Source: Candidatus Poribacteria bacterium (GTDB taxonomy: Bacteria; Poribacteria; DTPJ01; WJIO01). From it: DNA of 32,745 bases. Below are positions 19,814 to 30,241 of the stretch, in pieces. The position numbers and the translations under genes are program-made. The stretch's first letter is position 1. Each line of letters begins with the position of its first letter. The stretch covers positions 1 to 32,745 of the forward strand of contig WJIO01000208.1 in the NCBI GenBank assembly GCA_014730235.1, given 5' to 3'. Below the pieces are notes generated by a model. That model ran no database searches, was not told the DNA's origin, and saw only the letters and a list, made by a program, of their open reading frames with translations.

Positions 19814-22783
19814 TCATCTTTCTTTGGGCATTCGTGGAAATAAGGTTTCCAGCAGTCCTATGACATATTCATTTACCATAGGTTTTATAGTCATTTTAAT
19901 CTGCAAATATGCCTCATAAGGTGTTATCCTGCCGGCTATCATGCTGGTTATAATATCGTCATGGGCGGATAAGTTTATATTTGCTTTTTCTGTTTTATCT
20001 GAAATTTTCACCTCGCTTTCGGAAATGTCTATACAAGCCCGGTATTTCTTACCTATAATATTAATTTTTCCACTCCATAATTTGTAGTCACTGTCTTTTA
20101 TGCGCTTTGATAAAAGCGAAGATATTTCTTTAAGCAGCATAGGTAGATTTATCATCTTAAACATCTTTACACCTCCGCTGCGCTCAAGCTGGTATCCATA
20201 ACCCAGGAGAATATCCCTGATATATTTCTTTTCTGCAAGATCACCTCTGAACATCAGAATTTTTGTAAAACCTTTATCCAGAAGGTTGTTATGAGTTGCG
20301 CATAATAAAGCCATACCTATACCTTTTCTGTTATCCGTTTCTTTTACATGTAAATCCCATAAAATCGCCTCTTTTTTATCATGACCTTGTCCGGTTTTAG
20401 TGAATCCAATTATTCCACTATCTTTTTCTGCCACTTTAATGACAGAACCGGGATTTTTATGGCTTTTTATTTTTATCGCTTCTACATCCAACATGTCTGA
20501 GTAAGTCTCTCTGGCTATTTCTGTCATTTTCACTTCATCCCCTGGCGAAAAATCCCTTATGTTGATTCCCTCCACTACTTTTGCTGTTTCTCTTTTTAGT
20601 TTTCCTGTCATATGAAAGCTTTGGCCTACGTCAATAAACCCAAAACTCCTATACATGGCATGGGCGTTATTTCGTGTTCCGGTATGGAGATAAGCGCAGG
20701 AACAATTTTTAATCAACGGATGCTCCATCATTTGCTTCATTGTCCATCTGGAAAGCCCCTTCCTGCGATACGCCGGATGAGTATGCACCCACTGCACATA
20801 AGCTCCGTTGACATGAATATTGCCGGGAAAATGGCTTATGCTGTCCATATCCATGTAGATATTAGCAACCCTTCGGCCCTGTATAGTGGGAAACATCCGC
20901 AGGTGGTCTTCTTCATATTCAATATCCATACTTAATATATTTTTACCATTTTTATCTTTTAATTCATCCAGGGATATTTTACATCCGGCCTTTTGAAGGG
21001 CATATACAGCATCAAGCTGAAAGAGATAATCCTGCTCTCTGGCTGTATCAAGCAAAAGTTCCTTAGCTGAATTAATCCCATGACGCACAAGAGCCAGAGA
21101 AGCTATTGCAGACAGAGCCAAATCTTCATCATTGCAGGCAATATCTTCAAGGACAGATACGGCCCGGCTGTCAGAAACTGTTGAAAGATACATAGCGGCG
21201 GTTGTACGTTTATATCTGTTTTCTGATTTCAGGTCAGTCATAATTTCTTTTTGGGGTTTCTTTATATCAATATACCAGCGAATTAAGCTACAGATAGCCT
21301 TATTTCTTTCACTCGCAGATTGATTTCTGTCCGCGATGGCTTTTTCCAGAATTTTTGGCACTTCGCTTTTAAATTCATCGCTGTCAAACGGTTTAATCGG
21401 CAGCGGGTGCATTGTCGTTCCTATTTCTTTGAACCAGGGATAAAGATCAGTCTCTAACCCTCGACTGAGAAAATAAATAAATATATCCATTTCGGAAAAA
21501 TATCCCGGTTTTAGTATTTTTTCAAAATCTTTATCCTTTTCTGTTGCTGCTTTTACTAGTTTTACCAGCGAATCATCACCGTATTTTTTTATAATTTTGT
21601 TTAATATCCACAAGGATTTGGGATGGTATATGTATGTCTTTGTGATGTCAAAATCTTTATCCTCTATATGATCGAAGATTTTCTGGTATATTTCCTCTGC
21701 TTCTTTCTCATAACCCAGTAACTTCATAGCCGAAAGACCGAAAAACTGCCTGATAACATCAAAACTAAAGCCAGCGTACCATATTATTTGTCCCAGTGAT
21801 CCAAAATCCATCTGGCTTGCCATTTCAACACCCAGGGCATAAGCAAGCTTAGCATCATTCATACTGACTCCAATAGAGATGATTGAGTCTCCCCAGTTAA
21901 AACGATGTATGGCTGAATTATTTATTTCTATTGTATAACTGGCATCTTCTCCCTTTGGAAATTTGTTAATTATATCTGTCTTAATTGTTTTTGCAAACTC
22001 CAAACATTTGTCCACCCTATCGTTGGTGAAATCATTATAATTTATAAATATCCCGTTATCTTCCTTTGATCTGTATTCCAGGGATATTTCATCGGGTACG
22101 TTTTCGTTACTCTTGATCCGGGATATATGATTACAGGATAACCAATCAATAAAGGTCTTGCATAATCTTAGGTTATAATACGAGAATTCCAGGTCGTTTA
22201 TTATTACAATCCTGCCTTTACCATATTTCAAAAATGCGCCAACGGGTTCTTTTGTATCAGCGTTTTCCAGAAAAACCTCCCCATTATCAGGTACACTGAT
22301 TATACAGCAATTAGCTACAGGTATATATTCAAGATCCAGACCTTTTAAGGCTGGATGAGAAAGCATGCGCAGGCTTTTTTTGTGGTATCCATCCAGTAAA
22401 TTGCTTCCGTCAAAAACTATTTCACCACTACAGCTTTCCAGAGGTAAAAATTCAGCACCAAATATCCGGGCAATTTTATTCATGCGCATAACATAAACAT
22501 TGTCGTCTACATATTTCTGGTATCTACTGCTGCTGGATGCTAAAAGCAATCCACCTCCGTTTTCCACGAATTTTTTTATAAGGTAAATCTCATCATTCCT
22601 GTATTCCAGGGGTGAGTAACCACAAATAGTTACAACATCGTAATTTTTCAATACCGACCATTTGAGATAATCCCTGTTATCAGTCGTAATGTAAATATCA
22701 TCGGGTTCAAGATCGACCAAAGCTTTGGACCAACCTGAATCTCTGGATTGTTCCACAAGGATATGAATTTTCTCACAAGCCAT
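19814..22783 (-). CDS. Giant fusion: ThuA/DUF4350-like + gluzincin-like remnant + HEAT + tandem GNAT + SCP2 (Eis-like)
   Basis: The 989-residue product is cytoplasmic, with no signal peptide. Residues 1-220 resemble the class-I-amidotransferase-like fold of ThuA/DUF4350 proteins (YDVVTICGYSPLEYRNDE; FVENGGGLLLASSSSRY; FLKYGKGRIVIINDLEF). Residues about 225-470 resemble an M60/gluzincin-type domain, but where HExxH would stand there is ALGVEMASQ, so it would be inactive. About 505-610 looks like HEAT repeats (RTTAAMYLSTVSDSRAVSVLEDI). Two acetyltransferase domains follow: GNAT1, with HPAYRRKGLSRWTM near 665, and GNAT2, with TDNRKGIGMALL near 812. The last ~85 residues (LWSGKINIIGKKYRACIDI...ITPYEAYLQIKMTIKP) look like SCP2. 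The GNAT-GNAT-SCP2 order is that of Eis-type N-acetyltransferases. A weak AAGGA site precedes the ATG. It is divergent from the signalling cassette. The acceptor substrate is unknown. Confidence 0.75.
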   Translation of the reverse strand: MACEKIHILVEQSRDSGWSKALVDLEPDDIYITTDNRDYLKWSVLKNYDVVTICGYSPLEYRNDEIYLIKKFVENGGGLLLASSSSRYQKYVDDNVYVMRMNKIARIFGAEFLPLESCSGEIVFDGSNLLDGYHKKSLRMLSHPALKGLDLEYIPVANCCIISVPDNGEVFLENADTKEPVGAFLKYGKGRIVIINDLEFSYYNLRLCKTFIDWLSCNHISRIKSNENVPDEISLEYRSKEDNGIFINYNDFTNDRVDKCLEFAKTIKTDIINKFPKGEDASYTIEINNSAIHRFNWGDSIISIGVSMNDAKLAYALGVEMASQMDFGSLGQIIWYAGFSFDVIRQFFGLSAMKLLGYEKEAEEIYQKIFDHIEDKDFDITKTYIYHPKSLWILNKIIKKYGDDSLVKLVKAATEKDKDFEKILKPGYFSEMDIFIYFLSRGLETDLYPWFKEIGTTMHPLPIKPFDSDEFKSEVPKILEKAIADRNQSASERNKAICSLIRWYIDIKKPQKEIMTDLKSENRYKRTTAAMYLSTVSDSRAVSVLEDIACNDEDLALSAIASLALVRHGINSAKELLLDTAREQDYLFQLDAVYALQKAGCKISLDELKDKNGKNILSMDIEYEEDHLRMFPTIQGRRVANIYMDMDSISHFPGNIHVNGAYVQWVHTHPAYRRKGLSRWTMKQMMEHPLIKNCSCAYLHTGTRNNAHAMYRSFGFIDVGQSFHMTGKLKRETAKVVEGINIRDFSPGDEVKMTEIARETYSDMLDVEAIKIKSHKNPGSVIKVAEKDSGIIGFTKTGQGHDKKEAILWDLHVKETDNRKGIGMALLCATHNNLLDKGFTKILMFRGDLAEKKYIRDILLGYGYQLERSGGVKMFKMINLPMLLKEISSLLSKRIKDSDYKLWSGKINIIGKKYRACIDISESEVKISDKTEKANINLSAHDDIITSMIAGRITPYEAYLQIKMTIKPMVNEYVIGLLETLFPRMPKER

Positions 22784-22931: not shown

Positions 22932-22982
22932 ATGGAGAAAAATAATATAACTGAATACTTGTTGTGGGGGAGTTTAGATTGA
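22932..22982 (+). CDS. Possible 16-residue leader peptide coupled to the vWA-LysM-FHA gene
   Basis: ATG GAG AAA ... GAT TGA encodes MEKNNITEYLLWGSLD. AGGGG lies four bases upstream. Its stop overlaps the next start by one base (TGATG), the classic arrangement for translational coupling. Against it, the start also sits in a possible -10 box (TTGATC-17-TATGGA), and both cannot be true. This is a tentative call. Confidence 0.25.
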   Translation: MEKNNITEYLLWGSLD

Positions 22983-24871
22983 TGAAAAAGATAAAAGCAT
23001 TAATATCCCTATTTGTGATTCTTTTTGTATTTCTGACTTTCAACTGTTTTGCTCAGAATAATAACACACAACCAAACGCTGATTTATGTTTTGTTATAGA
23101 TGTTTCCGGAAATATGACCGATGATGACACTGTATCTCTAATTAACAATATTACCGCAAAAACACTAAAAAGTGTTTCTGCAAACAGCAGGATATGTTTT
23201 ATAAAATTTTCAGCAAAACCCGAGCTTGTTATTCCCTTTACAAATATTTCAGAAGAGGATATGCTGGACAAATTTAAACAAACATTTGCCAGTTCCGAAA
23301 CTGAGAAACCGGCTCAAGCCAGAAATATAGTTGTAAAAAAGGGTGATACTCTGTGGGATCTGTCGGTAAAGTATTATGGTAATCCCTTTTTATGGAGAAA
23401 AATTGCAGAAGTAAACAACATCAGCAGATCAAAAGAATCCGATATACCTGTTGGTACTAAAATAATAATTCCGGATTTAGAGAGAAAGCTTCATATTGAC
23501 TCTCCTGAAAATTCTGAACACTCAAATATACCATCGGCTATAGAGAGAGCTATATATGAGTTAAAGCAAAATGGCAGAGCAGATTCCTCAAAAAGTATAA
23601 TTCTAATAACTAATGGCCTGATTAATATTGAAGACAGTCCAAAGGCAGTGGAAAAATACAGGTGGCTTAAGGAAGATCTGGCAAAAGAAAGCAAAAATGC
23701 AGGTATAAAAATATTCAGCTTTTTGTTTCATGAAAACGCAGAATTTGAGCTTATGCAAACTCTTGCCCAGAGAACCGGTGGTGATTATTATCGAATAAAA
23801 CAAACTGAAAACATAACTCCTGCCGTAAATAGCATGATAAAAATACTGCATAAAACTGAGGAAAAACCCACCCCCCAACCTCTGGTAAAACAAAAGGTTG
23901 TAAAAGATGAAAAAGCTGGCATTCCGTTAAGTTTGATTATCGCATCTGCCGCCGGTCTAGTTATTCTGGGTTCTGCTGCAGCATTTGTTTTGACCAAAAA
24001 GCGCAAAGGTTCCGGTGTTAGTAAGGGTAAAATCCCAGAAGCCTGTCTTGTGGATGTTGAAGGAGTTACCGATAATAATACATATATTATTGATAAACCC
24101 TTTGTTACCATTGGTAGATTAAAAGGAGACAACGTTGATATAGTAATTAATCAAAGTACTGTATCCAGTACTCATGCCCAGATAAGGTATAGAGACCGCC
24201 GCTTTTATCTTGTGGATCTGGGAAGCACCAACGGTACATATCTGAACGAAGAAAAAGACCGCATAACCGGCGAAGTAAGTCTTGAAAGCGGAGACATAAT
24301 CATTCTGGATCAATATAAGTTTAGATTTATGATACGGGGTAAGGCTTCTCAACACAAAACAACAGATAAAAGACAGGTGGTAAAACCACAAACCCAAACT
24401 GTGCAACCCCCTAAAAGCGGCGTAACACAGATAAATCCAGCCCATCGAACAGGAACAATGATTTCCACAGGTAAAAATGATGAATCAGCCAAGGATATAA
24501 AAATGCCTGAAGCGTATCTTGTAGATACAGGAAGCGTTACAGGTGAAAGGATGTATAGAATTTCAAAACCGCTGATGAGGATTGGACGACTGAATCGAGA
24601 GGATATAGATATTATTATCGAAAAGAATACGGTTTCAGCTATCCACGCCCAAATTGAATATAAAAATAACAAATTTTTCATTTCAGATCTGGGTAGCAGA
24701 AATGGAACCTATCTGAACGATACAAAAGAAAAGATAACAACCGAAACGGAACTTAACTGTAACGATATATTATATTTTGATCAATATAGATTTAAATTCC
24801 TGGTGCGCGGGCAAAATGATCAAAACAAAACTGAAATTAGTGTAAAGAGTAATCAAACAACTACCAGTTAA
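22982..24871 (+). CDS. Transmembrane vWA protein with LysM insertion and two FHA domains
   Basis: This is a membrane adaptor of a phosphosignalling cassette, 629 residues from the ATG at 22982. GGGGGAG sits nine bases upstream, whereas the ORF-track GTG start overlaps that site. A signal peptide (about 1-24) precedes the first half of a vWA domain (34-106: ADLCFVIDVSGNM, with a DxSGN variant of the MIDAS DxSxS). A LysM domain (about 116-165: VVKKGDTLWDLSVKYYGNPFLWRKIAEVNN) interrupts it. The vWA second half follows (about 180-290: SIILITNGL; IKIFSFLF; GGDYYRI). One membrane helix (about 316-338) leads to two FHA domains (about 354-453 and 510-610) with GR, S.xHA and the STNGTYLN or SRNGTYLN motif. 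The outside would bind peptidoglycan and the inside phosphothreonine proteins. The kinase gene starts about 40 bp downstream. Confidence 0.88.
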   Translation: MKKIKALISLFVILFVFLTFNCFAQNNNTQPNADLCFVIDVSGNMTDDDTVSLINNITAKTLKSVSANSRICFIKFSAKPELVIPFTNISEEDMLDKFKQTFASSETEKPAQARNIVVKKGDTLWDLSVKYYGNPFLWRKIAEVNNISRSKESDIPVGTKIIIPDLERKLHIDSPENSEHSNIPSAIERAIYELKQNGRADSSKSIILITNGLINIEDSPKAVEKYRWLKEDLAKESKNAGIKIFSFLFHENAEFELMQTLAQRTGGDYYRIKQTENITPAVNSMIKILHKTEEKPTPQPLVKQKVVKDEKAGIPLSLIIASAAGLVILGSAAAFVLTKKRKGSGVSKGKIPEACLVDVEGVTDNNTYIIDKPFVTIGRLKGDNVDIVINQSTVSSTHAQIRYRDRRFYLVDLGSTNGTYLNEEKDRITGEVSLESGDIIILDQYKFRFMIRGKASQHKTTDKRQVVKPQTQTVQPPKSGVTQINPAHRTGTMISTGKNDESAKDIKMPEAYLVDTGSVTGERMYRISKPLMRIGRLNREDIDIIIEKNTVSAIHAQIEYKNNKFFISDLGSRNGTYLNDTKEKITTETELNCNDILYFDQYRFKFLVRGQNDQNKTEISVKSNQTTTS

Positions 24872-24910
24872 ATATAACTTCAGGAAAACAAAGTTTGAAT
24901 GAGGGACAAA

Positions 24911-27900
24911 ATGTCACTTTTTTCCAAAATTGGGGATTTCTTCAGAAATTTTATCGGCGGTAAATCCAAAAAGTCCAACACCGAAGTTCCCACAGAAAAT
25001 AAACCTGCTGCAGGAACCGCACTCCGAACAGAATTAAGAACACAACTCAGAACAAAAATGAGTCCCATAGCTCCGGAATTAAGCGCAAAACAACTGGCTG
25101 AACAGCATGGATGGATGGACGGCCAAAAAAGTCAGCTTAGAATCTGGGAAAAGGGGGATATCATACTCGATACGTATCAAGTACTAAATGTGATTGCCGG
25201 TGGTATGGGATATGTCTATATTGTTGAGCACATGGACTGGAATGTTAAGATGGCTGTTAAATCTCCAAACCAGATGATGCTCTCGGATGAAATTCTTTTT
25301 ACACGTGTTCTTAAGGAAGCCGATTCCTGGATTGAATTGGGATTACACCCCCATATAGCTTACTGCTATTATGTCCGTCAATTGGAGAATATACCCCATA
25401 TATTTATTGAATATGTAGACGGTGGTAGTATGCGGGATTGGATCGTTGAAGGCAAATGCAAGGATCTGAAAGTCGGTATTGATCTGGCAATACAGTTTTG
25501 TCATGGTATGATTTACGCCCACAGCTTTGGTATGATCCATAGGGACATAAAACCGGAGAATATTCTTATCACACAGGATGGAACTCTGAAAATAACGGAC
25601 TTTGGTATAGCAAGAACCGGAGGCACAGAAGAAATCGAGATTAATTCCGATATAGAGATAGATGAAGAATTAAAACCTGATAATAAAAATACTACGTCTG
25701 TAGGTTCTATCATGGGAACTGCTGAATATATGTCCCCTGAACAATATAGGGATCCACATGGTGTAGATAAACGTGCTGATATTTATTCTTTTGGTGTATG
25801 TTTATATGAAATGTTCTGTAATGGCTTTCCTTACAGCAGTCCAGTAGAGGGACGAAAACCAGAGGAAAAACCTTTTGAACCCAGAAAAATGAGAAAAGGT
25901 TTGCCCGAAACTCTGGAAAGTATTTTGAAAAAAAGCGTCGCCTGGGATCCGGAAGAACGGCTTAATTCCTTTGATGAAATGCTGGAGATGCTGGTAGCTG
26001 TATACTATGAGGAATTTAATGAAGTAGCGCCTCATGCCCAGTTGAGAGATGCGGGACTAAGGGCTCAGGGTTTGAATAACAGGGCTGTTTCGTATGTGGA
26101 ATTAGGAAGGAAAAAAGAGGCTATAAAGCTATGGAGGGAAGCACTTAAGGAAGACCCTCAACACATAGAGGCAACTTATAACCTTGGTATAACCCTCTGG
26201 CGCAATGGTGATCATACAGACGATGAGCTTATACAGCAGTTAAGAGCTATAAAAACAAGCCATAAAAATCTCTGGCTTATTGACTATCTTATCGCCCTGG
26301 TGCATCTGGAAAGGGGTGACGCTGAATCATCTATACCACTTTTAAGAGAAGCCGCAACAAAACTGCCCCCGGATACAAGCGATGCTGCTCAGATTCAATC
26401 CGCTCTGGAACTGGCTCAATCCTCTGAAATTGTAGCAGCCAGATGTATAAGAACTTTTGACGGGCAAAATTCTGACATCAGGTCTGTATGTCTGACAGAG
26501 GACAGCCTGTATGCTGTATGCATATGTGAAAATGGAATAATTTACCTTTGGGACGTAAGTTCAGGAGAAATGCTACAGGAAATTCAGGCCCATAACAGCG
26601 AGGCCCATTCTATTTGTTTCAGCAACGATGGACTCTATATGGCTTCATCCAGCAATGACAAGACAGTGAAGCTGTGGGATGTTGAAACGGGAAATTGTGT
26701 TCGTACTCTTGAAGGTCATAAAGGATATGTTAATTCTGTACATATAAGCAGGGATAACAAATATATACTTTCCGGCAGCTCTGATGAAACCATGAAGTTG
26801 TGGAGCATAGAAAACGGTCAATGTGTAAACACTTTCGAACATGATAATGATGTTATCAGATCTGTATATCTCAGCGAAGACAACTCAAAAGCCGTTTCAG
26901 GAAGTAATGATGGTATAGTAAGAATATGGGACGTTAAGATAGGTGAATGCCTGAAGCTTTTAGAAGGCCATGCCGGTTATGTAACTTCTGTTTGTATGAG
27001 TGGAAATGGTAAGAATGTGCTTTCAGGAAGCCATGATAAATCAGTTTGTTTCTGGAATCTGGAAACAGATGAGTGTCTGAAAAGATTTGAAGGTCATAAA
27101 AGTTTTGTATGCTCTGTCAGTCTAAGCACAGATGGTCGCTATGCCTTATCTGGAAGCGATGATAAAACCATAAGGCTCTGGGATACTCATACCGGAAAAT
27201 GCCTTCGAACTCTGGAAGGTCATGATGGTTTTGTCAGGGATGTTCATCTGAGTTCTGATGGGCGATACGCCCTGTCAGGGGCTTCTGATAGAACACTTAT
27301 GCTCTGGGAACTGCCGTTAAGATGTCTGAGAATATTTGAAGGACATGAATCAGAAATTCATTCCGTTTGCATAAGCTCTGACGGAAGATATGCAATAACA
27401 GGAAGCGGTATATATGGTCAGGATAATGTCCTTCGACTGTGGGATGTCTGGACAAAGCAGTGCCTAAAGACATTCAAAGGACATACAGGCGTCGTATCCT
27501 CAGTATTTATGAGCAGGGATGGTTCTCTGGCTGTCTCAGGAAGCTATGATAACACTGTCAGATTATGGAATATGGAATCCGGGCAATGTATGAGGGTTTT
27601 TGAAGGACATTCTGATTATGTCAACACTGTATACATAACCAGAGATAACCGTTATGTTATTTCGGGCAGCAGTGATAATACCATAAAAATATGGGACACA
27701 GGTTCCGGATTGTGCCAAAAAACCCTTAAAGGTCATTCAGGATATGTAAACTCCGTATATACCACAAGTGATGATCTTAACCTCATCTCAGCAGGTAATG
27801 ACAAAAGCCTGCGTTTTTGGAATATAGAATCTGGTGAATGTATAAAAGTTTTTGAAGGTCATAATGACAATGTAAATTCTGTATGTATAACTAAAGATGA

Positions 27901-29410
27901 CAAAAGAGCTTTATCTGCCAGTGATGATAACACTGTCCGTATCTGGGATGTAAATACAGGTGAGTGTTTGAAAACTCTGGAGGGTCACAAAGGTTCAGCA
28001 ACGTCTGTATGTGTTAGCGAAAACAGCCGATATGCTCTGTCGGGAAGTAAAGATAAAACCCTTAGACTTTGGAATATAGAAACAGGTCAATGTCTGCGTA
28101 CTTTTGAAGGGCATACGGAAGAGGTAACTTCTATATATATCAGCGATGATCAAAGCTATGTGCTTTCGGTGGGCAAAGACAGAAATATGATAATGTGGGA
28201 GCAGCCTTTTGAACAATCAGGAACCTTCCCGCTCCGGCTTTCCAGGTCTATGTCCCACGCAGATCTGGTGGAGCTTGAAGCAAAAGCCAAAGAACTTTTG
28301 TCTAAAGCCGAAGATGCCTTATCTCAAAAAAGACTTAATGAAGCTCTTAATTTTGCCCAGGAATTAAGGGAATTGCCCGGTTATGAAAGGGCTGCCGAAA
28401 GTATGGATTTCTGGCGCAGACTATCTATGGTTTGTGAAAAGACAGGTGTCAAATCAGCATGGTACGTAAGAACCATGGAAGGACATAAAGATGGTGTATC
28501 ATCAGTAGTTATTACCGATGACGGAAAATATATAATTTCAGGTAGTATGGACGATACAATTAAGTTATGGGAAACGGAAACTGGTGAATGTCTTAAAATT
28601 TTTGAAGGTCATACCATGGACGTTCGGGCCATATCCATTAACTCCAACGGTAGATTCATCCTTTCTGGTGGAAGAGATAACACCATGAGATTGTGGAACG
28701 TTGAGTCCGGTGAGTGTCTCAGAGTATTTGATGATGGTGTTGGAAGTGTCTCATCAATTGATTTGAGTAAAGACGGGCGATTTGCCATATCCACAGGTGT
28801 TTCCAGTGAAGATAATAAGTCTGAAAATCTTATAAAACTGTGGAATACACTTACAGGTGAATGTCTGAAAATATTTGCCGGTCATACTAAATGGGTAAAT
28901 TCTATATGTCTTAGTGAAGATGAAAGGTATATTCTTTCAGGCAGCTATGATTCTGATCTGAGACTCTGGGAAATGTCAACAGGAAGGTGTATTAAGATAC
29001 TTGAAGGTCATGAAAGCTCTGTAAGTTCCGTATCATTCAGTCCTGATGGAGCTTACGCCCTTTCTGGTGGACATGACGGAACAATCAGATACTGGGATGT
29101 AACATCAGGGGAGTGTCTGAAGATATTGGAAGGTCATAATGATTGGGTCAATTCTGTAAAGTTTACTAAAGATGGTGTTTATGCCTTATCGGGTAGCAAA
29201 GATAAATCTGTCAGGTTATGGAATATAAAAACGGGTAATTGTCTGCATATTTTTGAAGGACATACCCACTGGGTTAATTCTGTATGTATAAGCTTTGATG
29301 GTCAATACGCAGTATCTGCAAGTGAGGACGAATCAATAAGGTTGTATGAACTCGATTGGGAACTGGAAGCAAAACAGTTGGCCAAGGCGTTTAATTATAA
29401 TAGGAGATAG
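24911..29410 (+). CDS. Ser/Thr protein kinase with helical region and 21 WD40 repeats
   Basis: This is a cytoplasmic Hanks-type kinase, 1499 residues from ATG 24911. The track start at 24899 is 12 bases earlier, but GAGGG five bases before 24911 favours the later one. Numbering here follows the track ORF. The kinase domain (about 92-370) has the loop AGGMGYVY, K121 (MAVK), HRDIKPEN (D216), DFG (D234) and MSPEQY, so it should be active. An acidic insert (IEINSDIEIDEELKPD) follows DFG. TPR-like helices (about 385-510) lead to 14 WD40 repeats (515-1108), a helical linker (1109-1190, LVELEAKAKELLSKAEDAL) and 7 more repeats (1191-1503). The blades have the consensus EGH...VNSV...DG.Y.LSGS.D.T.RLWD...G.CL. 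There is no transmembrane helix. It sits between the FHA adaptor and a PP2C phosphatase in one operon. Confidence 0.95.
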   Translation: MSLFSKIGDFFRNFIGGKSKKSNTEVPTENKPAAGTALRTELRTQLRTKMSPIAPELSAKQLAEQHGWMDGQKSQLRIWEKGDIILDTYQVLNVIAGGMGYVYIVEHMDWNVKMAVKSPNQMMLSDEILFTRVLKEADSWIELGLHPHIAYCYYVRQLENIPHIFIEYVDGGSMRDWIVEGKCKDLKVGIDLAIQFCHGMIYAHSFGMIHRDIKPENILITQDGTLKITDFGIARTGGTEEIEINSDIEIDEELKPDNKNTTSVGSIMGTAEYMSPEQYRDPHGVDKRADIYSFGVCLYEMFCNGFPYSSPVEGRKPEEKPFEPRKMRKGLPETLESILKKSVAWDPEERLNSFDEMLEMLVAVYYEEFNEVAPHAQLRDAGLRAQGLNNRAVSYVELGRKKEAIKLWREALKEDPQHIEATYNLGITLWRNGDHTDDELIQQLRAIKTSHKNLWLIDYLIALVHLERGDAESSIPLLREAATKLPPDTSDAAQIQSALELAQSSEIVAARCIRTFDGQNSDIRSVCLTEDSLYAVCICENGIIYLWDVSSGEMLQEIQAHNSEAHSICFSNDGLYMASSSNDKTVKLWDVETGNCVRTLEGHKGYVNSVHISRDNKYILSGSSDETMKLWSIENGQCVNTFEHDNDVIRSVYLSEDNSKAVSGSNDGIVRIWDVKIGECLKLLEGHAGYVTSVCMSGNGKNVLSGSHDKSVCFWNLETDECLKRFEGHKSFVCSVSLSTDGRYALSGSDDKTIRLWDTHTGKCLRTLEGHDGFVRDVHLSSDGRYALSGASDRTLMLWELPLRCLRIFEGHESEIHSVCISSDGRYAITGSGIYGQDNVLRLWDVWTKQCLKTFKGHTGVVSSVFMSRDGSLAVSGSYDNTVRLWNMESGQCMRVFEGHSDYVNTVYITRDNRYVISGSSDNTIKIWDTGSGLCQKTLKGHSGYVNSVYTTSDDLNLISAGNDKSLRFWNIESGECIKVFEGHNDNVNSVCITKDDKRALSASDDNTVRIWDVNTGECLKTLEGHKGSATSVCVSENSRYALSGSKDKTLRLWNIETGQCLRTFEGHTEEVTSIYISDDQSYVLSVGKDRNMIMWEQPFEQSGTFPLRLSRSMSHADLVELEAKAKELLSKAEDALSQKRLNEALNFAQELRELPGYERAAESMDFWRRLSMVCEKTGVKSAWYVRTMEGHKDGVSSVVITDDGKYIISGSMDDTIKLWETETGECLKIFEGHTMDVRAISINSNGRFILSGGRDNTMRLWNVESGECLRVFDDGVGSVSSIDLSKDGRFAISTGVSSEDNKSENLIKLWNTLTGECLKIFAGHTKWVNSICLSEDERYILSGSYDSDLRLWEMSTGRCIKILEGHESSVSSVSFSPDGAYALSGGHDGTIRYWDVTSGECLKILEGHNDWVNSVKFTKDGVYALSGSKDKSVRLWNIKTGNCLHIFEGHTHWVNSVCISFDGQYAVSASEDESIRLYELDWELEAKQLAKAFNYNRR
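26441..29407 (+). repeat. WD40-coding tandem repeat array, 14 + 7 units of about 126 bp
   Basis: Twenty-one in-frame units code for WD40 blades. Units 1-14 span about 26441-28222 and units 15-21 span 28469-29407. Most are exactly 42 codons; units 8 and 17 are longer through insertions (GSGIYGQDNV and STGVSSEDNKSEN). The 14+7 count fits three seven-bladed propellers. Confidence 0.9.
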
Positions 29411-29449
29411 TATTGCTTGATGTCTATACTGAATAAAAGAGGTAAAAGC

Positions 29450-30241
29450 ATGAAAATTCTGAAAGACATGTTCAATCGGAGAACATCTAAAGTCAAAGAC
29501 ATCGCATACTATGGAATAACGGATACGGGTAAACAAAGGGATAAAAACGAAGATAGCTATCTCCTTATGCCTGAAGCTGGGATATATGTTGTCGCTGATG
29601 GTATGGGCGGCCACAACGCCGGAGAGATTGCTAGTGTAAATACTATTAAAGTTATAAAAGATTACTTTAATAATGGTATTATTTCCAGTATGCGTCAGAA
29701 CAGGAACACAGTCTCGGAAAATTTGAAAAGAGCTGTTCTTATGGCCCATAATGAAATTATAGATTTAAGCCAGCAGGAAATCGGTCATAACGGCATGGGA
29801 AGCACTATTGCTCTGTCTTTCATATATAACAACATCCTTCACACCTGTCATGTAGGCGACTCCCGGGTTTACGTTATCAATGATACAGGAATAACCCAGA
29901 TAACCAGTGACCATTCCACAGTAGCAGAATTAGTGCAATCGGGGAAAATGACCTCAGAGGAAGCCCGTCTAAGCCCCTTAAAGAATCAGATTACCCAGGC
30001 AGTTGGCACACCCCTTATTATCGAACCCGAATATAACCATACCTACAGGTTAAAAAAGGATGATATGATTCTCCTGTGTTCTGACGGTCTATGGGATATG
30101 CTCTCGGATAACCAGATATACATAATCGTTAATCGGGGAAAAACACTGGAAAAGATATGCAAGGATCTGGTTTACATGGCAAATGACGCCGGGGGTGACG
30201 ATAACATTACAATAGTGCTTCTAAAAATAAAAACCAATTAA
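29450..30241 (+). CDS. PP2C-family Ser/Thr protein phosphatase
   Basis: This protein phosphatase of the Stp/PrpC type removes phosphate from Ser and Thr using two metal ions. The product has 263 residues from ATG 29450, which has AGAGGT six bases upstream. The track start (TTG 29417) and ATG 29420 are alternatives with a distant AGGAGA. All PP2C metal and phosphate motifs are present in order: GKQRDKNEDSY, VVADGMGGHNAGE, GMGSTIALS, CHVGDSRVY, ITSDHS, CSDGLWDML and GGDDNITIVLL. No signal peptide or membrane helix is seen, so it acts in the cytoplasm. It lies 39 bp after the kinase gene and so is almost certainly its antagonist, dephosphorylating the kinase and its targets. Confidence 0.95.
   Translation: MKILKDMFNRRTSKVKDIAYYGITDTGKQRDKNEDSYLLMPEAGIYVVADGMGGHNAGEIASVNTIKVIKDYFNNGIISSMRQNRNTVSENLKRAVLMAHNEIIDLSQQEIGHNGMGSTIALSFIYNNILHTCHVGDSRVYVINDTGITQITSDHSTVAELVQSGKMTSEEARLSPLKNQITQAVGTPLIIEPEYNHTYRLKKDDMILLCSDGLWDMLSDNQIYIIVNRGKTLEKICKDLVYMANDAGGDDNITIVLLKIKTN

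Follow-up and report, generated by a model that had tools for sequence, protein, structure and literature searches.

In Pseudomonas aeruginosa the kinase PpkA has an extracellular vWA domain and acts together with PppA and Fha1 (PMC3224232). Elements added at the metal-site side of a bacterial vWA domain have also been described. PilB of Streptococcus sanguinis, which has been likened to RrgA, carries arms beside the vWA MIDAS, a kind of insertion used in ligand-binding proteins (PMC8179133). As for LysM domains, PMC4083421 describes the binding of GlcNAc polymers as established for the family, and in the fungal type III CVNH-LysM lectins (MoCVNH-LysM) the LysM is inserted into another domain (PMC4392113). 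We have analyzed a gene of a Candidatus Poribacteria bacterium, located in a window of 32,745 nucleotides (the whole stretch of DNA analyzed), in which a LysM domain is nested within a vWA domain. The arrangement is real, and it is an unusual combination of known parts. The literature that we searched contained no description of a LysM inside a vWA.

Gene and domain layout

The gene (22982-24871, forward strand, as for all features below unless indicated) encodes a protein of 629 amino acids in a frame that is open throughout. A Shine-Dalgarno-like GGGGGAG precedes the ATG at 22982, from which we count all residues; an alternative GTG start at 22964 is possible. The order of the protein is signal peptide, first half of a vWA domain, LysM, second half of the vWA, one transmembrane helix and two FHA domains. 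The signal peptide (residues 1-24, 23053 being its last base from 22982) has a positive start and a hydrophobic stretch, with a probable cleavage after CFA. The first vWA half (residues 33-103, 23078-23290), delimited by the Pfam VWA match and by the secondary structure of the model, contains strand 1 with the MIDAS motif DVSGN (23099-23113), helix 1, strands 2 and 3 and helix 2. Linker 1 (residues 104-115, 23291-23326) leads into the LysM (residues 116-167, 23327-23482) and linker 2 (residues 168-179, 23483-23518) leads out of it. The second vWA half (residues 180-292, 23519-23857) starts with MIDAS loop 2 (S181), followed by helix 3, strand 4 with ITNG (23594-23617), strands 5 and 6 and the last helix.

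The transmembrane helix (residues ~314-338, 23921-23995) coincides with a hydropathy maximum of 2.34 over 19 residues. Behind it stand FHA domain 1 (24104-24307, Pfam 67.8 bits) and FHA domain 2 (24578-24778, 59.2 bits); both match the family profile and both have the phosphothreonine-binding residues (GR, S, H and the N of NG). Since a signal peptide and a single transmembrane helix come in this order, the vWA and the LysM are predicted to be periplasmic and the FHA pair cytoplasmic. On the reverse strand of the window, 19814-22783 encodes a 989-aa protein with two matches to GNAT acetyltransferases and HEAT-like repeats.

A single vWA domain split by a LysM

Pfam VWA matched the protein in two stretches (E 1.4e-11, the best stretch being 34-115), and between them, at residues 117-164, Pfam LysM matched over its cut-off with E 6.7e-9 in context. 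When the LysM was excised and searched alone the E value was 3.4e-10, and the score for PF01476 was 36.0 bits against a cut-off of 20.9. Taken separately, the two vWA halves scored 27.3 bits (profile positions 1-78) and 23.0 bits (74-167). The original prediction, which had placed a LysM inside a vWA, proposed a profile search with the LysM removed, and the result agrees with it: once the LysM was cut out the two halves gave one continuous Pfam VWA match of 47.3 bits over positions 1-167 of 174. The interval that it gave for the LysM, 23300-23520, does contain the domain, although it takes in the linkers as well. We also aligned the protein with 19 vWA domains from its own genome and its relatives, and strand 1 with its DxSxS, strand 2 and strand 4 were in register in every row. 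One alignment that combined many LysM rows with the vWA rows (A1) was discarded, as vWA strands had slid onto the LysM, and the other two (A2 and A3) were checked through anchor residues before structure prediction.

The same picture emerges from the predicted structures. With vWA rows only, AlphaFold2 assembled the two halves into a complete vWA (block pLDDT mostly 83-96) and modeled the LysM poorly. When ten LysM rows were added the LysM folded too, with block pLDDT mostly >80 and the expected beta-alpha-alpha-beta order (in model numbering, strand 85-88, helices 95-103 and 106-115, strand 131-134). The linkers formed low-pLDDT blocks, 63 and 49 against about 90 elsewhere; linker 1 did so in both models, and in linker 2 the pLDDT fell to <50 at model residues 140-146. 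Foldseek and VIA-align found matches running through both halves to BatB, CMG2/ANTXR2 and VWF A1. The top Foldseek match was of the BatB/BatA type (3ibs, E 7e-10), and VIA-align to solved vWA domains gave Z of about 21 with 170-185 residues aligned over model range 1 to ~264. The pTM of the model was 0.72, and the orientation of the LysM to the vWA is not fixed by it. Thus, in the models, the vWA appears as one fold made from both halves and the LysM as a confident, separate excursion on floppy linkers, the opposite of the result that the original prediction had named as its refutation. The rows given to AlphaFold2 were whole vWA domains themselves, so the comparison of split and joined Pfam scores is the more independent test. 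The host domain is therefore a member of PF00092 by whole-domain profile and by fold, and the insert a member of PF01476 by a profile score above cut-off and by its beta-alpha-alpha-beta fold.

Insertion site and metal site

The segment ISEEDMLDKFKQTFA corresponds to vWA helix 2 (residues 89-103). Linker 1, the LysM and linker 2 come next, and then H180-S181-N182, the counterpart in the alignment of the GGTN loop in which the MIDAS threonine stands. The insertion takes the place of the short segment joining helix 2 to MIDAS loop 2 and, lying directly before this second loop, it is on the metal-site side of the domain. The location among the MIDAS-loop helices that had been proposed was therefore close to the exact site.

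The MIDAS residues of the protein are D40, S42, N44, S181 and N211, where the canonical set is D, S, S, T and D, so that DVSGN, S and N stand in place of DxSxS, T and D, a difference at three of the five positions. Among the 19 comparison domains DxSxS and the final D are retained without exception, and the T in 17. A canonical MIDAS is needed for a metal-dependent vWA and not for membership of the fold. The three changes suggest that metal binding by this vWA may be weak or lost. It is known that vWA domains without a canonical MIDAS are still able to bind proteins.

Genomic neighborhood

Just downstream, 24899-29410 encodes a Hanks-type Ser/Thr kinase (Pfam and motifs) of 1503 aa with 21 WD40 repeats and no transmembrane helix, whose kinase domain has HRDIKPEN and DFG. 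It is followed by a PP2C-type phosphatase at 29417-30241 (Pfam PP2C, E 7.3e-18). The three genes are on the same strand, 27 and 6 bases apart, a spacing that makes them a putative operon. The WD40 kinase was the sole Pkinase match at 1e-10 in the 5.5 Mb genome. Among the FHA matches of the genome the two in the vWA-LysM protein were by far the strongest, and two weak ones were found elsewhere. Near its N-terminus the kinase has a repeat of the LRT type, ALRTELRTQLRTKM (window 25013-25057), that bears threonines (residues 42-52), and these are possible docking sites for the FHA domains. For the vWA-LysM protein PADLOC gave no match, and what it reported for the neighbors was limited to generic matches to kinase, WD40 and PP2C.

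Relatives and other nested LysM domains

We did not find a second vWA with a nested LysM among 84 genomes of the phylum. In the same way, none appeared among the top hits when 84,980 species were scanned with pattern seeds, a limited test since exact peptides were required, and tblastn against plasmids gave no match. The architecture thus rests on one genome. These searches gave no ortholog with a nested LysM and hence no sign that it is maintained by selection.

What does exist are proteins with signal peptide, vWA, transmembrane helix and FHA and no LysM. There is one in the same genome (contig C372, 521 aa) and one in another genome of the phylum (G059, contig C747, 489 aa). They share with the present protein the order of outer vWA, transmembrane helix and inner FHA, but they have a canonical MIDAS and a single FHA besides lacking the LysM. 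The C372 gene (L248:1302-5663) adjoins a tubulin-like gene of the Tubulin_2 family rather than a kinase.

Several other candidates were rejected. Matches in WOR-3 and other genomes (L022, L024 and L026), which seemed to extend over the LysM and the second vWA half, were N-terminal LysM proteins of another kind and not vWA proteins; four viral matches (L132, L133, L141 and L142) were amidase-SPOR-LysM proteins; and the LysM matches of the phylum that we examined were N-terminal LysM coiled-coil proteins. Where other families of the phylum gave FHA matches, these belonged to other proteins, except for the C747 protein. A weak LysM match, to an 813-aa frame of a further genome (G016, contig C199), is less clearly of another kind; the only ORF >400 aa listed there was beta-mannosidase-like.

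A different nested LysM was found in an M28 peptidase of the same genome (L259:4119-8240, contig C188), which contains remnants of a PA domain and LysM modules. This peptidase is conserved in 28 of the 29 genomes searched (relatives at L267-L275). Two LysM-like modules are common to all ten aligned genomes. A third (residues ~423-470) occurs only in this genome and G001, which belong to the same order, and the eight genomes of other families lack it cleanly. The third module is therefore an inserted LysM for which relatives show the empty site. It makes the vWA case less odd, although the origin of the latter is not proven thereby. The statement that LysM is usually a terminal module is a fair generalization, to which this peptidase and the fungal lectins add known nested cases. 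The peptidase also has acidic D-rich repeats of the DGIDNDNDGDIDEDGE type that resemble calcium-binding repeats and are located inside its LysM modules or immediately behind them. Taken together, the vWA and the M28 cases indicate that loops of other extracytoplasmic domains can receive a LysM in this lineage, and annotation pipelines that assume LysM at the ends of proteins would read such cases as two broken domains.

Proposed role and alternative explanations

Our preferred reading, to which we assign a probability of about 0.5, is that the protein is a peptidoglycan-anchored transmembrane adaptor, likely a single-pass membrane protein, that docks phosphothreonine proteins through its FHA domains, the LysM being mainly a tether and positioner. 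By binding to peptidoglycan glycan strands, the LysM would hold the vWA and its top face at the wall, where the vWA would touch another envelope protein. On the cytoplasmic side, the FHA pair would dock threonine-phosphorylated partners of the neighboring kinase, perhaps the LRT-repeat tail of the kinase itself, and phosphorylation might assemble or release the complex at a place defined by the wall. One membrane protein would then combine attachment to the wall, contact with proteins and recognition of phosphothreonine, with the wall-binding part inside the protein-binding part. If this function were confirmed, it would be a route from the state of the cell wall to Ser/Thr phosphorylation other than the PASTA-domain kinases.

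Of the other explanations, taken from the best to the worst surviving, one is that the vWA is a decayed domain that now serves as a mere passive carrier, so that the LysM alone does the outer work of wall attachment and the signaling is purely cytoplasmic. The MIDAS substitutions and the lack of a conserved ortholog would fit with this, but the good scores of the fold and the packing of the two halves in the model show that it is not eroded, and a non-canonical MIDAS is compatible with protein binding; we consider it unlikely.

It is slightly less probable still that the three genes form the threonine-phosphorylation switch of the type VI secretion system (T6SS) of this genome, similar to PpkA-PppA-Fha with the outer vWA on the FHA protein and not on the kinase. 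The genome does encode a T6SS, on contig C254 (L287), with TssM/IcmF, TssA, TssB, TssC, Hcp, TssE, TssF, TssG and a ClpV-like ATPase. Within the phylum a TssC turned up in just one other genome, G001, so that the system is confined to two genomes, both of this order. A kinase (the only one detected), a PP2C phosphatase and an FHA protein occur together in this T6SS-bearing genome, which is the parts list of the Pseudomonas set (PMC3224232). Against it, the trio is on a separate contig (C135) and outside the T6SS locus, and the stretch of C254 that was read had no kinase or FHA match. Besides, neither the FHA part (at 1e-6) nor the PP2C (at 1e-20) was matched in G001, an assembly that is incomplete (88%, 900 contigs), and relatives of the PP2C are common in T6SS-free genomes. 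Because of this separate location and the negative result in G001, control of the T6SS by the trio stays a hypothesis.

More doubtful again is the LysM as an allosteric gate, in which peptidoglycan binding would move helix 2 and the MIDAS loop, alter the binding of ligand or metal by the vWA and relay this through the transmembrane helix to the FHA domains. The insertion immediately precedes the second MIDAS loop, and ligand-binding proteins make use of insertions beside a MIDAS, as with the arms of PilB, compared with RrgA (PMC8179133). Yet the changed metal site (3/5 positions) and the loose look of both low-confidence linkers place this gating below the tether, a role for which such linkers are no less suited than for an allosteric lever. 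The effect of peptidoglycan on metal binding put forward in the original prediction is for these reasons not upheld. A wall-occupancy sensor that extends this scheme, with peptidoglycan altering the vWA face and a signal through the membrane making the FHA domains capture the only Hanks kinase or let it go, possibly to control the T6SS, is the most speculative version and quite improbable.

Finally, a chimeric assembly or a chance Pfam match, which the draft state of the genome (451 contigs) and the single copy of the architecture might suggest, is hardly credible for one open frame with both domains over curated cut-offs, a VWA match that becomes continuous after LysM removal, one modeled fold and a GC of 0.33 in the insert against 0.35 and 0.36 in the flanks (GC3 being likewise similar), a likeness by which composition shows no sign of a chimera.

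Comparison with known systems

A known set with similar parts is PpkA-PppA-Fha, where an extracellular vWA, a transmembrane helix, a kinase, a PP2C phosphatase and an FHA protein also belong to one regulatory set (PMC3224232, PMC3953482). The trio differs from it in that the vWA is on the FHA protein, a LysM has been added, the kinase has WD40 repeats and no transmembrane helix, and the genes lie away from those of the T6SS. MoCVNH-LysM resembles the present protein in having a LysM within another domain of an extracellular protein, but there the host is a CVNH lectin with the LysM between its repeats, the organism is a eukaryote and there is no signaling part. In PilB and RrgA, too, a bacterial vWA has extra elements on its MIDAS face, although their arms are not LysM and their MIDAS is functional and binds Mg. 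The BatB/BatA aerotolerance proteins have only the vWA fold in common with it, without LysM or FHA. The vWA-LysM protein is thus made of known parts newly combined, with precedents both for the nested LysM and for insertions on the MIDAS side.
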